Positions 7,057 through 30,090 of a stretch of 40,832 nt of DNA are shown in pieces (the stretch's first letter is position 1; every line of letters starts with the position of its first letter). The stretch is from Paracoccaceae bacterium (GTDB lineage: Bacteria; Pseudomonadota; Alphaproteobacteria; Rhodobacterales; Rhodobacteraceae), in NCBI GenBank assembly GCA_003567315.1, contig PWZT01000020.1, positions 1-40,832 on the forward strand, read 5' to 3'. Under the pieces are notes generated by a model. It was not told where the DNA came from, ran no database searches, and saw only the letters and a program-made list of their open reading frames with translations. Made by a program: the position numbers and the translations under genes.

Positions 7057-7087
7057 TATGCCACCCGCCTGCGCGGCACGCGCAGGC

Positions 7088-7139
7088 AGCGCCCTCGGGG
7101 CGTGCAGGGGCGGGCGGGTGGGCGCGGCCCGAGGGCGCT
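7088..7139. terminator. Palindrome with G-quadruplex loop, copy 1 (convergent junction)
   Basis: An 18-base arm at 7088-7105 pairs with 7122-7139 with two imperfect positions (AGCGCCCTCGGGG against GGCCCGAGGGCGCT). The loop reads AGGGGCGGGCGGGTGG and, with the next G, makes four G-runs (7107-7110, 7112-7114, 7116-7118, 7120-7122) separated by single bases. That is a near-ideal G4 motif. The element is 48/52 identical to 12376-12427. It sits between two converging genes and ends GCGCTTTAT, so it probably acts as a bidirectional terminator. Confidence 0.7.
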
Positions 7140-7186
7140 TTATCCGTCATCCGCGGGACACGCCCGCGCAGGAGGTCAGGCGCCGC

Positions 7187-12306: not shown

Positions 12307-12375
12307 GCGGACGCGCCCTGCCATGTCGCCCGGGGGCTGCGGATCGGTACTCTCGCGCTGCGCGCAGATGAGAAA

Positions 12376-12427
12376 AGCGCCCTCGGGCCGTGCAGGGGTG
12401 GGTGGGTGGGCACGGCCCGAGGGCGCT
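12376..12427. terminator. Palindrome with G-quadruplex loop, copy 2 (convergent junction)
   Basis: A perfect 18-base stem (12376-12393 with 12410-12427; AGCGCCCTCGGGCCGTGC and its complement) carries the loop AGGGGTGGGTGGGTGG. With the next G this gives four G-runs separated by single T bases, the most stable type of G4 motif. On the minus strand the stem is followed by TTTTC. The element lies between the spike-base gene and the convergent aldehyde dehydrogenase gene. Confidence 0.75.
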
Positions 12428-12450
12428 CGCCCTTGCCTTTGGCAAGGGCG
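12428..12450. terminator. Second hairpin abutting G4 palindrome copy 2
   Basis: CGCCCTTGCC (12428-12437), TTT and GGCAAGGGCG (12441-12450) form a perfect 10-base stem that begins at the base after the G4 palindrome. Copy 3 shows the same tandem layout at 25734-25754. There is no T-tract, so it would be a structural or Rho-assisted end. Apart from the two hairpins, the minus-strand terminator and the 27-codon ORF, I see nothing in the 354-base stretch 12224-12577. Confidence 0.5.
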
Positions 12451-24036: not shown

Positions 24037-24747
24037 ATGACATATCCCGCCAAGACCCTGCCCATGGCCGCCCTCGCGCTGGCCCTTTCTGCCACGACCG
24101 CAATGAGCCACGGCGATGTGACGCCGCAGCCGGTCAACACCGACGGCCTGCCCGAGCTGACCGATGGCTGGGAGTTCGAAAATCCGTTTCGCGACCCTGA
24201 TGGCGATTACTGGGAGCGCGCCTTGCGCGTGGGCGACAGTGGCTATGGCCAGAACTGCGCGCGCTGCCACGGGCTCGAGGCCGTCTCGGGCGGGCTGGCC
24301 CCGGATCTGCGCTTCCTGATGGCCGAGGAAATGGATGATGAATGGTATATGGAGCGCGTGCGCCGCGGCTCGGGCGACCGGATGCCGGCCTATGAAGAGC
24401 TGATGAACCAGGAAGCGATGTGGGCGATCCGCACCTATATCGAGGCGCGCCCCGACCCTGACGGCATGGCCGAATTCATGCCGCGCCTGCGCGAAATCCG
24501 TGACGGGCTGCGCGACAAGCAGGAAGCGATTGCCGAAGGCACTGCCACGGCCGAGGATTACGCCGATGAGATTGCCGCGCTGCATGTCGAGCTGGCCGAG
24601 ATTGCCGAGGCCGTGCCCACCTTGTCCGGTGCCCCCAAGGCCGACAGTATCGCGCGCCGCGCCGCCGTGATTCTGGAACGCGGGGGCGAGCGGTTCCTGC
24701 GCAACGCCGATGAGACGCTGACCATCGGCCTGTCGGTCTCGCGTTGA
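24037..24747 (+). CDS. pedF: Cytochrome c550, PedF-like, electron acceptor of the alcohol dehydrogenase
   Basis: This 236-residue secreted monohaem cytochrome has a signal peptide (MAALALALSATTAMSHG) and the haem motif CARCH at residues 74-78. The likely axial Met116 is in GSGDRMPAYEEL. Upstream of the haem lies the WEFENPFRDPDGDYWERALRVG region (residues 45-66) that marks the PedF branch. A charged helical tail (about 140-225) follows. In the family it takes electrons from the PQQ alcohol dehydrogenase and passes them to the oxidase. The site GGAGGAG precedes the ATG. It lies between two secreted-protein genes and the MxaJ/XoxJ-like gene on the plus strand, and two CGAC-core motifs lie upstream. 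Confidence 0.88.
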   Translation: MTYPAKTLPMAALALALSATTAMSHGDVTPQPVNTDGLPELTDGWEFENPFRDPDGDYWERALRVGDSGYGQNCARCHGLEAVSGGLAPDLRFLMAEEMDDEWYMERVRRGSGDRMPAYEELMNQEAMWAIRTYIEARPDPDGMAEFMPRLREIRDGLRDKQEAIAEGTATAEDYADEIAALHVELAEIAEAVPTLSGAPKADSIARRAAVILERGGERFLRNADETLTIGLSVSR

Positions 24748-24769
24748 TCGCTTGCCAAAGGAGATACCG

Positions 24770-25660
24770 ATGAGTCCGAGACCCTCCCTGTCGGCCATGG
24801 TGCTGACAACTGTCCTGACCCTTGCCGGGTCAGGACTTTTTGCCCGTGAATACCCCTCCGACGATACCGGGCGCGACCGCGTCGGCGTGGATTACGACGA
24901 GATCATGGAACGCGGCTATATCGAGATCGGGGTCTATCAGGACTTCGCCCCCTATTCCTGGCGGAATGGCACCGGGCAGCTTGTGGGCGTCGATGTCGAT
25001 CTCGCGCAGTTAATCGCGGAGGATCTGGGCGTCGATCTACGCCTGACCGACCTGCCCGCCGATGAGGATGTGGACACCGACCTGCGCAACTATGTGTGGC
25101 GCGGGCATTACATGGGCCGCCGGATCGTCAATGTGCTGATGCGCGTGCCCTATAACCGCGAGCTGGACTATCGCAACGAACTGGCCGCGCTGACCGGGCG
25201 CTATTCGCAAGAACGCATGGCGATCGGCTACCGGGTGTCGGCATTCCCCGAGGAGCCGCCCTTTCCCGGCAGCTTCCAGTCGCATCCTGTGGCCGTGGAA
25301 ACCTATCGCCTGGCCGATTTCTACCTCACCGGGCTGCCCGGCGTTCTGCCCAACATGACGCGGCGGCGCAAGCTGGAGGATGTGATCGGGCTGTTGCGCG
25401 ATGGCGAGGTCGTGGCGGTGATGGGCCTGCGCGCGCAGCTCGAGCATCATCTGGGCGATGATCCTGACTTCGCTGTGGAAAGCGGACCGATGCCGGGGCT
25501 GGCGGTGGGCAACTGGCCCGTCGGGATCGCAACGGCGTTTTATACGGCGCGGATGCTGAGCTATGAGGTCGATGACATTCTGACCGCTGCTGTTCGGGAT
25601 GGCCGGGTCGCGGCGATCTATGCCGCGCATGGGCTGAGTTGGGAAGAACCGGGGCGTTGA
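24770..25660 (+). CDS. MxaJ/XoxJ-like periplasmic binding protein of the PQQ dehydrogenase
   Basis: This 296-residue protein has a signal peptide and a solute-binding-protein (family 3) fold. It contains the block typical of MxaJ/XoxJ: TDLRNYVWRGHYMG followed by a VNVLMRVPYNRE segment (residues about 100-135), after an EIGVYQDFAPYSWRN start. XoxJ is thought to help assemble or activate the quinoprotein rather than serve a transporter. The start at 24770 has AAGGAG at ideal distance; an ATG six codons upstream is less likely. It is the last gene of its operon and is followed 22 bases later by a G4-loop palindrome at the junction with a convergent ABC operon. Confidence 0.85.
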   Translation: MSPRPSLSAMVLTTVLTLAGSGLFAREYPSDDTGRDRVGVDYDEIMERGYIEIGVYQDFAPYSWRNGTGQLVGVDVDLAQLIAEDLGVDLRLTDLPADEDVDTDLRNYVWRGHYMGRRIVNVLMRVPYNRELDYRNELAALTGRYSQERMAIGYRVSAFPEEPPFPGSFQSHPVAVETYRLADFYLTGLPGVLPNMTRRRKLEDVIGLLRDGEVVAVMGLRAQLEHHLGDDPDFAVESGPMPGLAVGNWPVGIATAFYTARMLSYEVDDILTAAVRDGRVAAIYAAHGLSWEEPGR

Positions 25661-25682
25661 GGCCCGGTTCGGGCGGGGGAGA

Positions 25683-25733
25683 AGCGCCCATTCAGGGTGC
25701 CCACCCCCCCACCCGTGACCCTTCATGGGCGCT
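25683..25733. terminator. Palindrome with G-quadruplex loop, copy 3 (minus-strand G4)
   Basis: AGCGCCCAT (25683-25691) pairs with ATGGGCGCT (25725-25733). After a two-base mismatch, AGGGT (25694-25698) pairs with ACCCT (25718-25722). The loop on the minus strand reads GGGTGGGGGGGTGGGC, which can be split into four G-runs. It is a diverged relative of copies 1 and 2, with the same AGCGCCC ends. It lies at a convergent junction and contains the stop codon of the minus-strand ABC ATPase. Confidence 0.6.
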
Positions 25734-26339
25734 GCCCCTGTCTGCGACAGGGGCGGTTTCGTCTGCGGCAGGCGAAAGCACCATCTGCCGGGTGGCCAGC
25801 CTTTCGGCCTCGGCCTGCGCATGCGTCACGAAGACAGTCGCCGGGCGTTGCTCGGCGATGACGCTTTCGGTGAGCGCCAGCATGTCCTCGACGAGATCCG
25901 CATCCAGCGAGACGAAGGGTTCATCGAGCAGCAGGATATCGGGCCGCGCCGCATAGGCGCGCGCGAGCGAGAGGCGGCGTTGCTGGCCGAGCGAGAGCTG
26001 GCCGGGATAGAGCGCGCCCTTGCCCGACAACCCCACACGCGCAAGCGCTGCCTCGGCCTGCGTGGCATCAACGCCGGTCGTCAGCCGCAGATTGTCGCGC
26101 GCCGAGCGCCAGGGCAGCAGCGTCGGTTCCTGGAACACCATCGCGAGCCGCCCCTGCCGCCGCACCTGCCCGTCAAACCCTGCATCGAGCCCCGCGATGA
26201 TGCGCAGGAGCGTCGATTTGCCCACGCCCGAGGGGCCGCGCACGGCCAGCACCTCGCCGCGTGCGACCTGAAACACCAGATCGCGCAGCACCAGCGCATC
26301 GCCGAATCGCTTCGCGCGAATGGCAACTGACAGGCTCAT
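25692..26339 (-). CDS. ABC ATPase, NitT/TauT (SsuB/ThiZ) type
   Basis: This 215-residue ATPase has Walker A GPSGVGKST (residues 35-43), the Q-loop MVFQEPTLLPW (67-77), the signature LSLGQQRR (115-122), Walker B ILLLDEP (135-141) and the switch histidine in VTHAQAE. It is typical of taurine/nitrate/pyrimidine-type importers. The start overlaps the permease stop (ATGA). The last 20 or so residues, from about 194 on, are encoded by the two hairpins at 25683-25754. They look like a tail gained by read-in to the palindrome, because SsuB-like proteins usually end near the preceding residue. The frame stays open upstream to 26810 as an artefact. The substrate is unknown; the binding protein lies two genes upstream. 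Confidence 0.88.
   Translation of the reverse strand: MSLSVAIRAKRFGDALVLRDLVFQVARGEVLAVRGPSGVGKSTLLRIIAGLDAGFDGQVRRQGRLAMVFQEPTLLPWRSARDNLRLTTGVDATQAEAALARVGLSGKGALYPGQLSLGQQRRLSLARAYAARPDILLLDEPFVSLDADLVEDMLALTESVIAEQRPATVFVTHAQAEAERLATRQMVLSPAADETAPVADRGSAHEGSRVGGWAP
25734..25754. other. Second hairpin abutting G4 palindrome copy 3
   Basis: GCCCCTGTC (25734-25742), TGC and GACAGGGGC (25746-25754) form a perfect 9-base stem directly after the G4 palindrome. This repeats the tandem arrangement at 12376-12450. Here it lies inside the 3' end of the ABC ATPase gene. Confidence 0.5.
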
Positions 26340-27148
26340 GCCCCCCTCCAGCGGCGCGCACGCGCCTCTATGGGTTGCAGGATCAGCGTCTCGATCACCA
26401 GCATCACGCCGATGAAACTGAGCGCATAGACCATGACCATGGTCACATCGAACATCTGGAAATGCAGGTGGATACGGAAGCCGATCCCCTGCCCGCGCCC
26501 GAGAAACTCCACCACCAGCACGATCTTCCAGATCAGCGACAGCCCCGAGCGCGCGGTCGAGGCCAGATGCGGCGCGAGCTGCGGCAGCAGGATATGGCGC
26601 AGGCGGGCCATGCGCGACATGCCGAACACATGCGCCATGTCCGAGAGCTGGCCATTGAGCGCGCGGGCGCCCTCGCGCATCATCGCCGTCACAAGCGGCA
26701 CCTTGTTGATCGCGACGGCAACCACGGCGGCCATCTCGTTCAGCCCGATCCAGAGAAAGCACAGCACGATCACGACCAGCGCGGGCAGATTGAGGAAGAA
26801 CACCAGCCACGGGTCAAGCCAGCGGTTGAGCCTGGGCATGAGCCCCATCAGCACACCGAGCACGAGCCCCAGCGACATCGCGAGCGTGAAAGCCTGCACC
26901 ACGCGCCACAGCGTGATGCCGAGATGCTGCCAGAGCACGCCCGAGGCCGCTTCCGCCACAAGCCGGGGCAGCACGATCTGCGGCCCCGGCAGCACCATCG
27001 GATCGGCCTTGCCCCATGCAAGCACCCACCAGAACGCGACCAGCCCGGCCAGCGACAGGGCGCGCACGGCCCATGCGGGCAAGGCGGGCGACACTTTGGC
27101 CGCCCCCTCCGCCACGCGCGCGCGCCGCTCTGCGTCGACCAGCGTCAC
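26336..27148 (-). CDS. ABC permease, NitT/TauT (SsuC/TauC) type
   Basis: This 270-residue inner-membrane protein has about six hydrophobic segments. The binding-protein-dependent transport motif lies around MMREGARALNGQLSDMAHVFGMSRMARLRHILLPQLAP (residues about 157-194), where the conserved helix contacts the ATPase. The N-terminal region is like SsuC/TauC (ALSLAGLVAFWWVLAWG). It stops in an ATGA overlap with the ATPase gene and begins 9 bases after the binding-protein stop, so the three form one operon in the order binding protein, permease, ATPase. Confidence 0.9.
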   Translation of the reverse strand: MTLVDAERRARVAEGAAKVSPALPAWAVRALSLAGLVAFWWVLAWGKADPMVLPGPQIVLPRLVAEAASGVLWQHLGITLWRVVQAFTLAMSLGLVLGVLMGLMPRLNRWLDPWLVFFLNLPALVVIVLCFLWIGLNEMAAVVAVAINKVPLVTAMMREGARALNGQLSDMAHVFGMSRMARLRHILLPQLAPHLASTARSGLSLIWKIVLVVEFLGRGQGIGFRIHLHFQMFDVTMVMVYALSFIGVMLVIETLILQPIEARARRWRGA

Positions 27149-27157
27149 AGGCCCGGC

Positions 27158-28129
27158 TCAGGAGCCGAACGCCACGAAGACGCCGCTGGGCAATTCGGTG
27201 GCAGAGCCCACAAGCTCTTCGCCGCCCAGATCGACCATCAACTGGAACATCGCGCGCGCCGAGTCCTCATCGATCGGCCCGTCACCCGGAATGCCCGCGC
27301 GAAATCCCGCCACAAGCGCGTCGAATTGCGCGTCATCGGCTGCGTTCATCATCGGGCGCAGCCGGTCCCAATCCGCGTCCGATGTCGCCAACTGGACCTT
27401 GGCCGCCCTTGACGCCGCCGCGAAGGCTTCCACCAGTTCGGGGTTTTCCGCGACCAGCCCGGATTGCACGACATAGCCCAGAAGCGGCATGTCCGGGTCC
27501 ATGCCGAGCGCCTCGGCGGCCTCTGCGACCGAGATCAGATGCCGCATGCCAGCGGCCTCCTGCCGCGCCATGAAATGCCAGAAATTGATCGCGCCGTCCA
27601 ACTCGCCCGCAGCAGCCGCCTGAAAGATCAGCGGCGGCGCGCCATAGACCTGTTCGGTCTCGGCCAAGAGGTCGACGCCGTGCTGCGCCATATGTGCGCG
27701 CAGGATGATCCAGCTCTTGTCATTGGGCCCGCCGGCAATGCCGATGCGGCCGCCGGCGAGATCCTGCAGGCTCTCAGCCGCGCTTGCAGCAGGCACCATC
27801 ACCCCACCCACAGCGCGGCTGTAGGGAATGAAGGTGATGTCCTGCCCCGCCGCGCGCTGGCGGGCGACCCAGATCCAGTCATCGACGATCACATCGACCT
27901 CGCCGCCCTGAAAGGCGATCTGGCCTGCGGCCTTGCCCGCGACCTCCTGGATCTCGAGCCGGAAGCCCTGCGCCTCGTCAAGCCCGTGATGGCGGATGGT
28001 CTCCAGCTCCCATGCGACAGTGCCCCCTGCCTGGCTGGCGATGGTCAGCACTGGCAGATCCGCCAGCGCAGGCAGGCTGGTGAGCGCGAGAATGCCCGCG
28101 CCGCGCGCAAGCGTGAAATGGAATGTCAT
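27158..28129 (-). CDS. ABC substrate-binding protein, NitT/TauT family, next to PQQ dehydrogenase
   Basis: This 323-residue periplasmic protein has a signal peptide (ARGAGILALTSLPALAD) and an SsuA/ThiY-like type II binding fold. LTIASQAGGTVAWELETIRHH, VDVIVDDWIWVARQRAAG, GRIGIAGGPNDKSWIILRAH and the INFWHFMARQEAAGM block are visible. The tryptophan-rich VDDWIWVAR is conserved in this branch. It is divergent from the PQQ dehydrogenase gene across about 215 bases with three CGAC-core motifs, so it is probably induced together with alcohol oxidation. The ligand is unknown. Candidates are a cofactor precursor, a lanthanophore complex or an alcohol-derived acid; none can be chosen from sequence. 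Confidence 0.85.
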   Translation of the reverse strand: MTFHFTLARGAGILALTSLPALADLPVLTIASQAGGTVAWELETIRHHGLDEAQGFRLEIQEVAGKAAGQIAFQGGEVDVIVDDWIWVARQRAAGQDITFIPYSRAVGGVMVPAASAAESLQDLAGGRIGIAGGPNDKSWIILRAHMAQHGVDLLAETEQVYGAPPLIFQAAAAGELDGAINFWHFMARQEAAGMRHLISVAEAAEALGMDPDMPLLGYVVQSGLVAENPELVEAFAAASRAAKVQLATSDADWDRLRPMMNAADDAQFDALVAGFRAGIPGDGPIDEDSARAMFQLMVDLGGEELVGSATELPSGVFVAFGS

Positions 28130-28183
28130 GGTCTGTCCTCCCGTAAACCTGGGCCAAGACTATGGGCGCGCGGCCCGGCTGCC

Positions 28184-28275
28184 TATTCGACCAAAGGCCA
28201 ATCCCGTGGCCTTGCCCCCGCACGATAGTCGTAAGACCATTGGCCAATTTCCCGCGCCTCACGGCGTCGTAATAC
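28184..28275. promoter_or_regulatory. Three CGAC-core motifs in the divergent promoter of the PQQ dehydrogenase gene
   Basis: CTATTCGACCAAAGGCCA (28183-28200), AGTCGTAAG (28227-28235) and CGTCGTAATA (28265-28274) place CGAC/GTCG cores at 28188, 28228 and 28266, about 40 and 38 bases apart. The region also has a partial direct repeat (GACCA followed by GGCCAAT). It lies between the ABC binding-protein gene (minus) and the PQQ dehydrogenase gene (plus). Confidence 0.5.
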
Positions 28276-28344
28276 TCCGGACCACCTTAACCGCCGTGAC
28301 TTCGCCGATCCCCGGTCAAGCCCGGCCCTATGGGAGGAGTGAGG

Positions 28345-30090
28345 ATGAACAGATTCGTACTGGCCGCATGTGCCGGGATCATGGCGGCACCGATGGCGGT
28401 CGCGCAGGTGACCGAGGAGGATCTGGCCAATGACCAGAGCATCACCACACAGATCGTGACCAACGGCATGGGCCGGGACTGGCAGCGTTACAGCCCGCTT
28501 GACCAGATCAACAAGGACACCGTGCAGAACCTGTTTCCGGCATGGTCCTTCAGCTTCGGCGGCGAGCGCCAGCGCGGCCAGCAGAGCCAGCCGCTGATCT
28601 ATGACGGGGTGATGTATGTCACCGGCTCCTACAGCCGGGTTTTCGCACTGGACGTCAAGACCGGCGCGAAGCTGTGGCAGCATGATGCGCGCCTGCCCGA
28701 GGGCATCCTGCCCTGCTGCGACGTGATCAACCGTGGTGCGGCGATCTATGGCGACAATATCTATTTCGGCACCCTGGATGCGCGCATCGTGGCGCTGAAC
28801 CGTCACACGGGCGCCGTGGTCTGGAACCGCCGCATCGCCGATTACCGCGAAGGCTACAGCTACACTGCCGCACCGTTGATCGTGAACGGGCTGGTCATCA
28901 CCGGCAATTCCGGCGGTGAATTTGGCATCGTGGGCGCCGTCGAGGCGCGCGACGCCGAGAATGGTGAATTGGTCTGGCGTCGTCCGGTGATCGAGGGGCA
29001 TATGGGCGAATTGCATGGTGAGGAAAGCACCATGACGGGCGAGACCAATGCGACATCGCCCGGCGATATGTGGCAGACGGGCGGCGGCGCGCCGTGGCTG
29101 GGCGGAAGCTATGATGCCGAGACCGACACGCTTATCTTCGGCACCGGCAACCCCGCGCCGTGGAACAGCCATCTGCGCGAGGGCGACAACCTCTATGCCG
29201 CGAGCCGCATCGGCATTGACCCGGCCACGGGCGAGATAAAGTGGCACTTCCAGACAACCCCCTGGGAAGGCTGGGATTATGACGGCGTGAACGAAGTCGT
29301 GCCCTTCACGGATGCCGAGGGCAATGGCCGTCTGGCGACCGCGGACCGCAACGGCTTCTTCTATCTGCTCGACCGCGAGGATGGCTCCTTCGTGGACGCC
29401 ATGCCCTTCGTGAATGACATCTCCTGGGCGAGTGGCATCGACGAGACGGGCCGCCCGATCTTCAACGAGGCGAACCGTCCGGGCAACCCGGCCGAGTCGG
29501 CTGATGGCGAGCGCGGCGAGGTCGTCTGGGCCGTTCCGGGCTTCCTTGGTGGCAAGAACTGGCAGCACATGGCCTATTCGCAGCGCACCGGCTATTTCTA
29601 TGTGCCGGCGAATGAATGGGGCATGGATATCTGGAACGAGCCGATCACCTATCGTCAGGGCGCGGCTTACCTTGGCGCGGGTTTCACCATCAAATCGCTC
29701 TTTGACGACCATATCGGATCGTTCAAGGCGATCGACCCCAACACCATGGAAATCAAGTTCGAGGTCCATAACCGCGCGCCGCTCTGGGGCTCGGCCATGG
29801 CGACGGCTGGCGGGCTGGTGTTCTACGGAACGCCCGAAGGCTATATCAAGGCCATCGACGACGAGACAGGCGAGGTGCTCTGGCAGTTCCAGACCGGCTC
29901 TGGCGTGACCGGCCAGCCGGTGACATGGGAAGACGAGGACGGCGTGCAATGGCTCTCGGTGGTGTCGGGCTGGGGTGGCGCGGTGCCGCTCTGGGGCGGT
30001 GAGGTCGCGCAGGAAGTGGCCTATCTCAACCAGGGCGGGTCGGTCTGGACCTTCCGCATCCCCGATCAGCTTCTGGCCATGGCCGACTGA
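28345..30090 (+). CDS. pedH: PQQ-dependent alcohol dehydrogenase, ExaA/PedH family, lanthanide-type active site
   Basis: This 581-residue periplasmic quinoprotein oxidises primary alcohols to aldehydes. It has a signal peptide ([20 protein letters not shown]), eight W-motif propeller blades (for example [33 protein letters not shown]), and the vicinal disulfide Cys124-Cys125 in [12 protein letters not shown]. The end [12 protein letters not shown] is typical. The active-site segment reads GWDYDGVNE. Asp311 is the catalytic base, and Asp313 two residues later is the extra aspartate of lanthanide-dependent enzymes (XoxF, PedH), where calcium enzymes have Ser or Ala. Other sequence features follow ExaA/PedE/PedH rather than XoxF. 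The start at 28345 follows GGGAGGAG; the ATG at 28330 overlaps that site. It is followed by an intrinsic terminator. Confidence 0.93.

Follow-up and report, generated by a model that had tools for sequence, protein, structure and literature searches.

A dispersed gene-end palindrome with a G-quadruplex motif encodes the last residues and the stop of an ABC transporter ATPase in a Paracoccaceae bacterium

The C-terminus of an ABC transporter ATPase in this Paracoccaceae bacterium is encoded by a dispersed palindromic element, inside which the gene also finds its stop codon. The most economical account, which we hold to be probable as a whole, is that the element pre-dates the loss of the ATPase's own stop, that the opened frame was closed by a TGA belonging to the element, that the resulting tail is a by-product, and that the element has a role at the 3' boundaries of genes. 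The element-encoded tail, the existence of a family, its bias in location, the covariation of its stem and the conserved tracts of its loop are all read from sequence. In this account a REP-like palindrome would already have lain between the convergent ATPase and binding-protein genes when the ATPase's stop, just upstream of the element, was lost in the lineage of the source genome. Translation would then pass through the second hairpin of the element (hairpin 2) and most of the first (hairpin 1), gaining 20 residues, and would be closed by the element's TGA, the T-GA within a tandem G-A mismatch that one subtype of the family retains.

The window, the whole stretch of 40,832 nucleotides analysed (contig PWZT01000020.1), belongs to a 102-contig assembly in which single-base errors are possible. 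The ATPase gene (25692-26339, minus strand; PF00005, E 3.7e-27; limits set by a codon-usage gene caller) converges on a solute-binding protein gene (PF00497; 24797-25660, plus strand), and its open reading frame terminates in ...LSPAADETAPVADRGSAHEGSRVGGWAP*. An earlier note on this DNA had claimed that about 20 terminal codons traverse both hairpins of a palindrome and that the stop lies in the outer arm. Both parts were confirmed: translation and orthologue comparison place 20 element-encoded codons (APVADRGSAHEGSRVGGWAP) at 25695-25754 on the minus strand, where they cross hairpin 2 and then most of hairpin 1, and the TGA at 25692-25694 (minus strand) occupies positions 10-12 of hairpin 1's 16-base left arm. 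It is the T-GA of a mismatched step, which separates nine outer pairs from the inner pairs of hairpin 1. Genes for a cytochrome c-550 PedF, a binding protein and a PQQ-dependent alcohol dehydrogenase flank the ABC transporter genes, and this region (24037-30090) is probably an alcohol-oxidation cluster.

An orthologue search over 60 genomes returned 18 places outside the source genome, at 78-92% identity; we read 17 of these loci (L040-L056), leaving out a second place in G003, and one of them (L056) is cut by a contig end. Of 16 orthologous loci, 8 have the C-terminal motif of the solute-binding protein downstream of the ATPase. The stop lies 6-19 codons past the LATR motif in 15 of the 16 visible ends from the genus, and 31 codons past it in the source genome. 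The earlier note's description of the tail (ending EGSRVGGWAP) as unlike family ends was borne out, since none of the 16 genus orthologues with a visible end shares it; an orthologue carrying the same tail without the palindrome, which that note had named as its refutation, was likewise found in 0 of 16. In the nearest orthologue (L040, genome G032; 92% identical) the stop falls 21 codons past LATR, inside a decayed copy of the element and at a different TGA, and the tail is shorter and differs from that of the window, while arising at the same place. L051 (genome G026) keeps the native TGA; 3 nt later comes hairpin 2 in the window orientation, with an arm of hairpin 1 visible for 16 nt before the contig ends, so that the identity of the element there rests on little sequence. 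Because the element stands after an intact native TGA in L051, it looks older than the loss of the stop. Another palindrome, of the form GTAGGGTGCGTGC..GCACGCACCCTAC or nearly so, stands at four orthologue ends in other species (L042, L046, L047 and L050), and in 3 of the 16 orthologues (L042, L047 and L050) it supplies the ATPase's stop, the TAG of a GTAGGGTGCGTG palindrome.

Loss of the stop beside a pre-existing element fits these loci better than insertion, and it is from this comparison of relatives that we infer the order of events. The earlier note had supposed that the element replaced the native stop by inserting into the 3' end of the gene, itself removing the stop. Such an insertion would agree with copy numbers that range from 0 to 111 between genus genomes, so that copies are gained or lost, and with the absence of any such element, in the bases read, from 13 of the 16 visible orthologue ends. 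We nevertheless consider it unlikely, and L051, where the native stop survives and the element follows it in the same orientation, speaks against the earlier claim; moreover, the decayed copy in G032 is in frame. A comparison of the flanks of 12 copies with 8 relatives, which looked for the target-site duplication of a MITE, turned up neither such a duplication nor a clean empty site, these relatives being too distant or rearranged and synteny mostly broken. It is far less probable that the read-through is an assembly or base-calling error and that the real gene stops before the element: the genome is fragmented, in 102 contigs, and some contigs of the family end inside copies, but a separate genome, G032, also reads into its decayed copy without a native stop. 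Least probable of all is that selection maintains the tail as part of the protein. In the source genome the tail does form an open, in-frame extension; the nearest relative's tail, however, is different and shorter, the other 15 visible orthologues have none like it, and the subtype gives similar translations at places that are not evident genes. Most probably the tail is a by-product that is tolerated.

If the palindrome recurs, the earlier note had reasoned, the same tail should end unrelated proteins, and this held in part. A query of 27 residues (7 from the native side and the 20 encoded by the element) against 37 genus genomes gave, beside itself, 24 weak matches, the best at E 0.0045. 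Four of the five that were read are element copies with similar translations; the fifth (L275) shows no element and was set aside as a chance match. The translations at L274 (SAREGSRVGGWGP) and L278 (SAREGRGLGGWAP) stop at the element's TGA, that at L276 reads on and that at L277 is cut by a contig end, and the upstream frame scores as non-coding in all four. The tail peptide thus travels with the element and, among the five matches read, was seen at no other gene end. An unrelated protein does end inside a copy, though on the other strand and with a different peptide: a CrcB-family gene (L137; PF02537, E 3.1e-21) has RSARSGSPPTRP as its last residues, read from the C-rich strand, with its TGA in the loop. 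Among 124 copies examined (52 in the source genome, 40 in G015 and 32 in other genomes), this gene and the ATPase are the two whose ends lie more than 8 nt inside the element, and both copies are of the G-A subtype. Three more source-genome genes have a stop that coincides in part with the element, at its first 2 or 3 model positions.

Hairpin 1 of the family has the form AAAGCGCCC..GGGCGCT, with a loop around CCCACCCACCCGCCC. In the window copy it occupies 25683-25733 (arms 25683-25698 and 25718-25733), and its loop reads as a G-quadruplex motif, GGGTGGGGGGGTGGG, on the minus strand (25700-25714). TC at 25692-25693 stands opposite TC at 25723-25724, which is GA opposite GA on the minus strand. 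Hairpin 2 (25734-25754) abuts hairpin 1, and its arms (25734-25742 and 25746-25754) are 100% complementary. The element folds better than 200 of 200 shuffles on both strands (z -4.8 and -6.5), and the hairpin-1 model R2 scores the window copy, which is among its 88 rows, at E 3.1e-8. Hairpin 2 adjoins hairpin 1 in the source-genome copies aligned and is not evident in many G015 copies. Next to hairpin 2, an extra imperfect hairpin (TTTCGTCTG..CAGGCGAAA; window 25740-25778) has GTCTGCGRCAGG in common with it, the two occurrences forming a direct repeat with a spacing of 21 nt; the matching stretch in G032 (L040) is shorter, as if deleted between direct repeats.

Conservation was assessed in a hairpin-1 alignment of 88 sequences, 81 of them distinct, which leaves out five source-genome copies (one duplicate, one contig-end piece and three odd copies, including one with an inverted loop and one without the motif), and the conservation of stem and loop is therefore somewhat flattered. 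Ten of the 12 stem pairs vary on both sides, with 64 two-sided changes, 4 one-sided changes and 13 unpaired cells. As G-U pairs are nearly absent, the palindrome may be maintained as DNA, or for both strands. The four C-tracts of the loop are kept in 30 of 34 distinct loops and in 27 of 29 loop variants of the same length, where the mean of 2000 random trials was 5.4 and the highest count 14. In the C-rich register, the quadruplex motif occurs in 50 of the 52 source-genome copies with spacers of up to 7 (49 with spacers of up to 3), the other two having an inverted loop or no motif, and in 37 of 40 G015 copies examined; at the level of sequence the element has the features expected of a G-quadruplex element, namely four G-tracts with short loops, conserved between copies. 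The copy with the inverted loop lies in the window (12374-12450, plus strand), and there the loop is inverted relative to hairpin 2, which puts the quadruplex motif on the opposite strand and looks like a flip of the palindrome's tip.

Tandem G-A mismatches in DNA are stable and adopt a sheared geometry. In the G-A subtype, counted pair by pair along the stem, TC stands opposite TC, or GA opposite GA on the G-rich strand, and an A after the left TC makes the G-rich strand read T-GA; such a TGA is the stop of the ATPase. This subtype accounts for 3 of 52 source-genome copies, including that of the window, none of 40 in G015 and 18 of 32 loci in other genus genomes. The type-A consensus holds no stop trinucleotide on either strand, and none is present in 46 of the 52 source-genome copies, so that a gene running into a type-A copy would read on. 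We rejected the stop-free copies as a sign of selection, the element being very G+C-rich.

That the tail is encoded by a recurrent element, another claim of the earlier note, is supported by the number of copies. Used as a query, the stretch 25640-25800 matched 14 places in its own genome, counting itself; a fuller copy as query found 40 places at E below 2e-15; and a covariance model built from 32 copies gave 53 hits, representing at least 52 distinct places, a minimum given that 150 of 5938 candidates were scored and copies may be missed. A second copy in the window (7066-7141, minus strand) lies, like the copy with the inverted loop, between convergent genes. Across the genus, 23 of 37 genomes gave a hit; counts per genome ran from none to 111, and G015 searched by itself gave 127. 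The remaining 14 had no hit at the threshold used, which argues that the element is not essential. In a sample of the order (196 genomes from 87 genera; 28 candidates scored per genome), the source genome was joined by one single hit, at E 7e-5. A pattern search of named genomes found 19 stretches, all from metagenome-assembled Rhodobacteraceae and three of them from one bin labelled Natronohydrobacter; their sample names presumably point to soda lakes. A collection of plasmids gave no match to one hairpin-1 copy used as query, no viral contig matched the type-A pattern, and Rfam 15 had no match at the element, either for the window at gathering scores or for 8 loci at E<=1. Contigs end in or at element copies in L051, L152 and G000:C90:1-56, and as assemblies break there, copy numbers are probably underestimates. 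Elsewhere, in the left flank of G000:C84:16111 (L097, query positions 268-336), about 60 bases recur at dozens of places in G033, and also in relatives, and are apparently another dispersed repeat.

Copies gather at gene ends. Thirty-two of the 52 in the source genome lie between convergent genes, 14 between tandem genes with the C-rich strand as mRNA, four between tandem genes in the opposite orientation, one between divergent genes and one at a contig end, as against 14 convergent among 204 element-free gaps of the same regions (Fisher p 7e-17), a baseline drawn from regions chosen for holding the element. A called gene stands on each side of 51 of the 52, and at least one gene points at the element in 50 of these 51. 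The best 40 of the 127 hits in G015 comprise 21 convergent, 11 tandem with C-rich mRNA, five tandem opposite and three divergent; the 32 loci examined in other genus genomes, taken from the best-scoring copies, for which element limits cover hairpin 1 only and of which five were found via orthologous flanks, comprise 23 convergent, five and two tandem (C-rich mRNA and opposite, respectively) and two with one neighbour uncalled. These gene contexts are approximate, the codon-usage caller having been trained on source sequences and applied unchanged to other genomes. Within the window the element is present at 3 of 5 convergent junctions and at none of 32 others. Among tandem copies, the C-rich strand is the mRNA in 14 against 4 in the source genome (p 0.03), 11 against 5 in G015 (p 0.21) and 5 against 2 in other genomes (p 0.45), or 30 against 11 when pooled (p 0.004).

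The positions of the element appear to be partly old. In 5 of 30 loci fetched with the flanks of 12 copies (L247, L250, L254, L264 and L270), the element is retained at the orthologous gene end in another species; among the junctions printed, those without it include one in G004 and G030, and one further junction each in G022, G032 and G033. The genes at the G000:C61:29950 junction adjoin in the source genome and are about 0.6-1.2 kb apart in G003 and G033 (L248, L251, L256 and L259), and from this difference in spacing some element junctions have been rearranged.

That a palindromic repeat can end a gene is already known, from REPs. REPs are reported to occur chiefly at the downstream side of genes, where two converge or follow in tandem; they may encode amino acids, and GTAG REPs often supply a TAG stop to flanking genes (PMC3733652). 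The element resembles them as a short palindrome, present in many extragenic copies downstream of genes or between convergent or tandem ones (at least 52 places) and sometimes coding. It differs in its larger unit, the quadruplex motif in its loop, the tandem G-A subtype and a stem nearly free of G-U changes. Furthermore, the tags that define the GTAG and CGTC superfamilies (PMC3733652, PMC2817692) are absent from the ends of the 88 aligned copies, which start (A)AAGCGCCC or close variants. A RAYT/Y1 transposase (PF01797, E<=0.001) was found neither in the source genome (about 90% complete) nor in G015, and the family was above cut-off in 1 of 24 genus genomes (L170, G001:C167:1080-1436). We therefore file the element as working like a REP, outside the tagged superfamilies. 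The palindromic elements of Rickettsia, of about 150 bp and reported as in-frame insertions within genes (PMC10969869), are alike in that a palindromic repeat becomes part of a protein; their usual site is within genes and in frame, whereas 2 of the 124 copies examined of the present element hold a gene end more than 8 nt inside. Intrinsic terminators and gene-end inverted repeats (PMC6060812) share a GC-rich 3'-end hairpin and some T on the G-rich strand. The element departs from terminators in its long conserved loop and sequence, and in having a short T-run on one side only in the source genome; many G015 copies are flanked by AAA and TTT. A further comparison lies within the order Rhodobacterales, to which Paracoccus belongs. 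In Paracoccus denitrificans one quadruplex motif lies upstream of nasT (PMC5123632); it likewise has four G-tracts in a Rhodobacterales genome, but is a lone promoter-side site, whereas that of the element forms the tip of a repeated gene-end hairpin.

A strong hairpin with a quadruplex-motif tip might stop or stall RNA polymerase or protect an mRNA end, and we tentatively suggest that the element may serve as a 3'-end boundary, whether as terminator, polymerase roadblock or mRNA end protection, above all for convergent genes. What speaks against a plain intrinsic terminator is that only about four A stand beside hairpin 1 (four T on the G-rich strand) and no T-run of that kind follows hairpin 2; a terminator scan marked one weak site only, at hairpin 2 on the plus strand. 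A serious rival, possible though somewhat less likely, is that the element is a selfish repeat without function, which gathers at 3' ends because selection removes other insertions. REP-like spread, restriction to the genus, a very uneven copy number and the similar location bias of published REPs (PMC3733652) are all as expected of such a repeat; on the other hand, the preservation of four tracts and paired stems over many copies, and retention at an orthologous gene end in 5 of 30 loci, suggest constraint (or copying of young masters), and no mobilising enzyme was found in the source genome. We think it unlikely that the element acts as RNA, through a C-rich loop that binds protein or RNA in the mRNA or a hairpin that protects the 3' end. 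In tandem settings, 30 of 41 copies have the C-rich strand as mRNA (p 0.004), and REPs near stop codons are reported to stall ribosomes (PMC12306157); however, G-U pairs are almost absent, the 12-pair stem showing 64 changes on both sides and 4 on one side only, and neither G015 nor the other genomes, taken singly, show a significant orientation bias.

A more ambitious form of the boundary role is doubtful: a genus-specific, chromosome-wide 3' boundary combining a DNA hairpin or cruciform, a quadruplex tip and, in one widespread subtype, a conserved tandem G-A step, with the T-GA as an emergency stop. If it were true, an element between convergent genes would block transcription collision or read-through from either side, and a gene that lost its own stop would be closed by the element's T-GA. 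The earlier note's interpretation is, overall, partly supported. We recognised no description of such a repeat family in open-licence papers, and a family with a quadruplex motif kept in dozens of gene-end hairpins was not found described there. The relatives of this ATPase display apparent stages on the way from palindrome to protein, namely an element beside a stop that is still intact, a frame that runs on into a decayed copy, and one that runs on into a clear copy. With its many natural replicates, the family lends itself to asking whether hairpins tipped by a quadruplex affect the ends of bacterial transcription.
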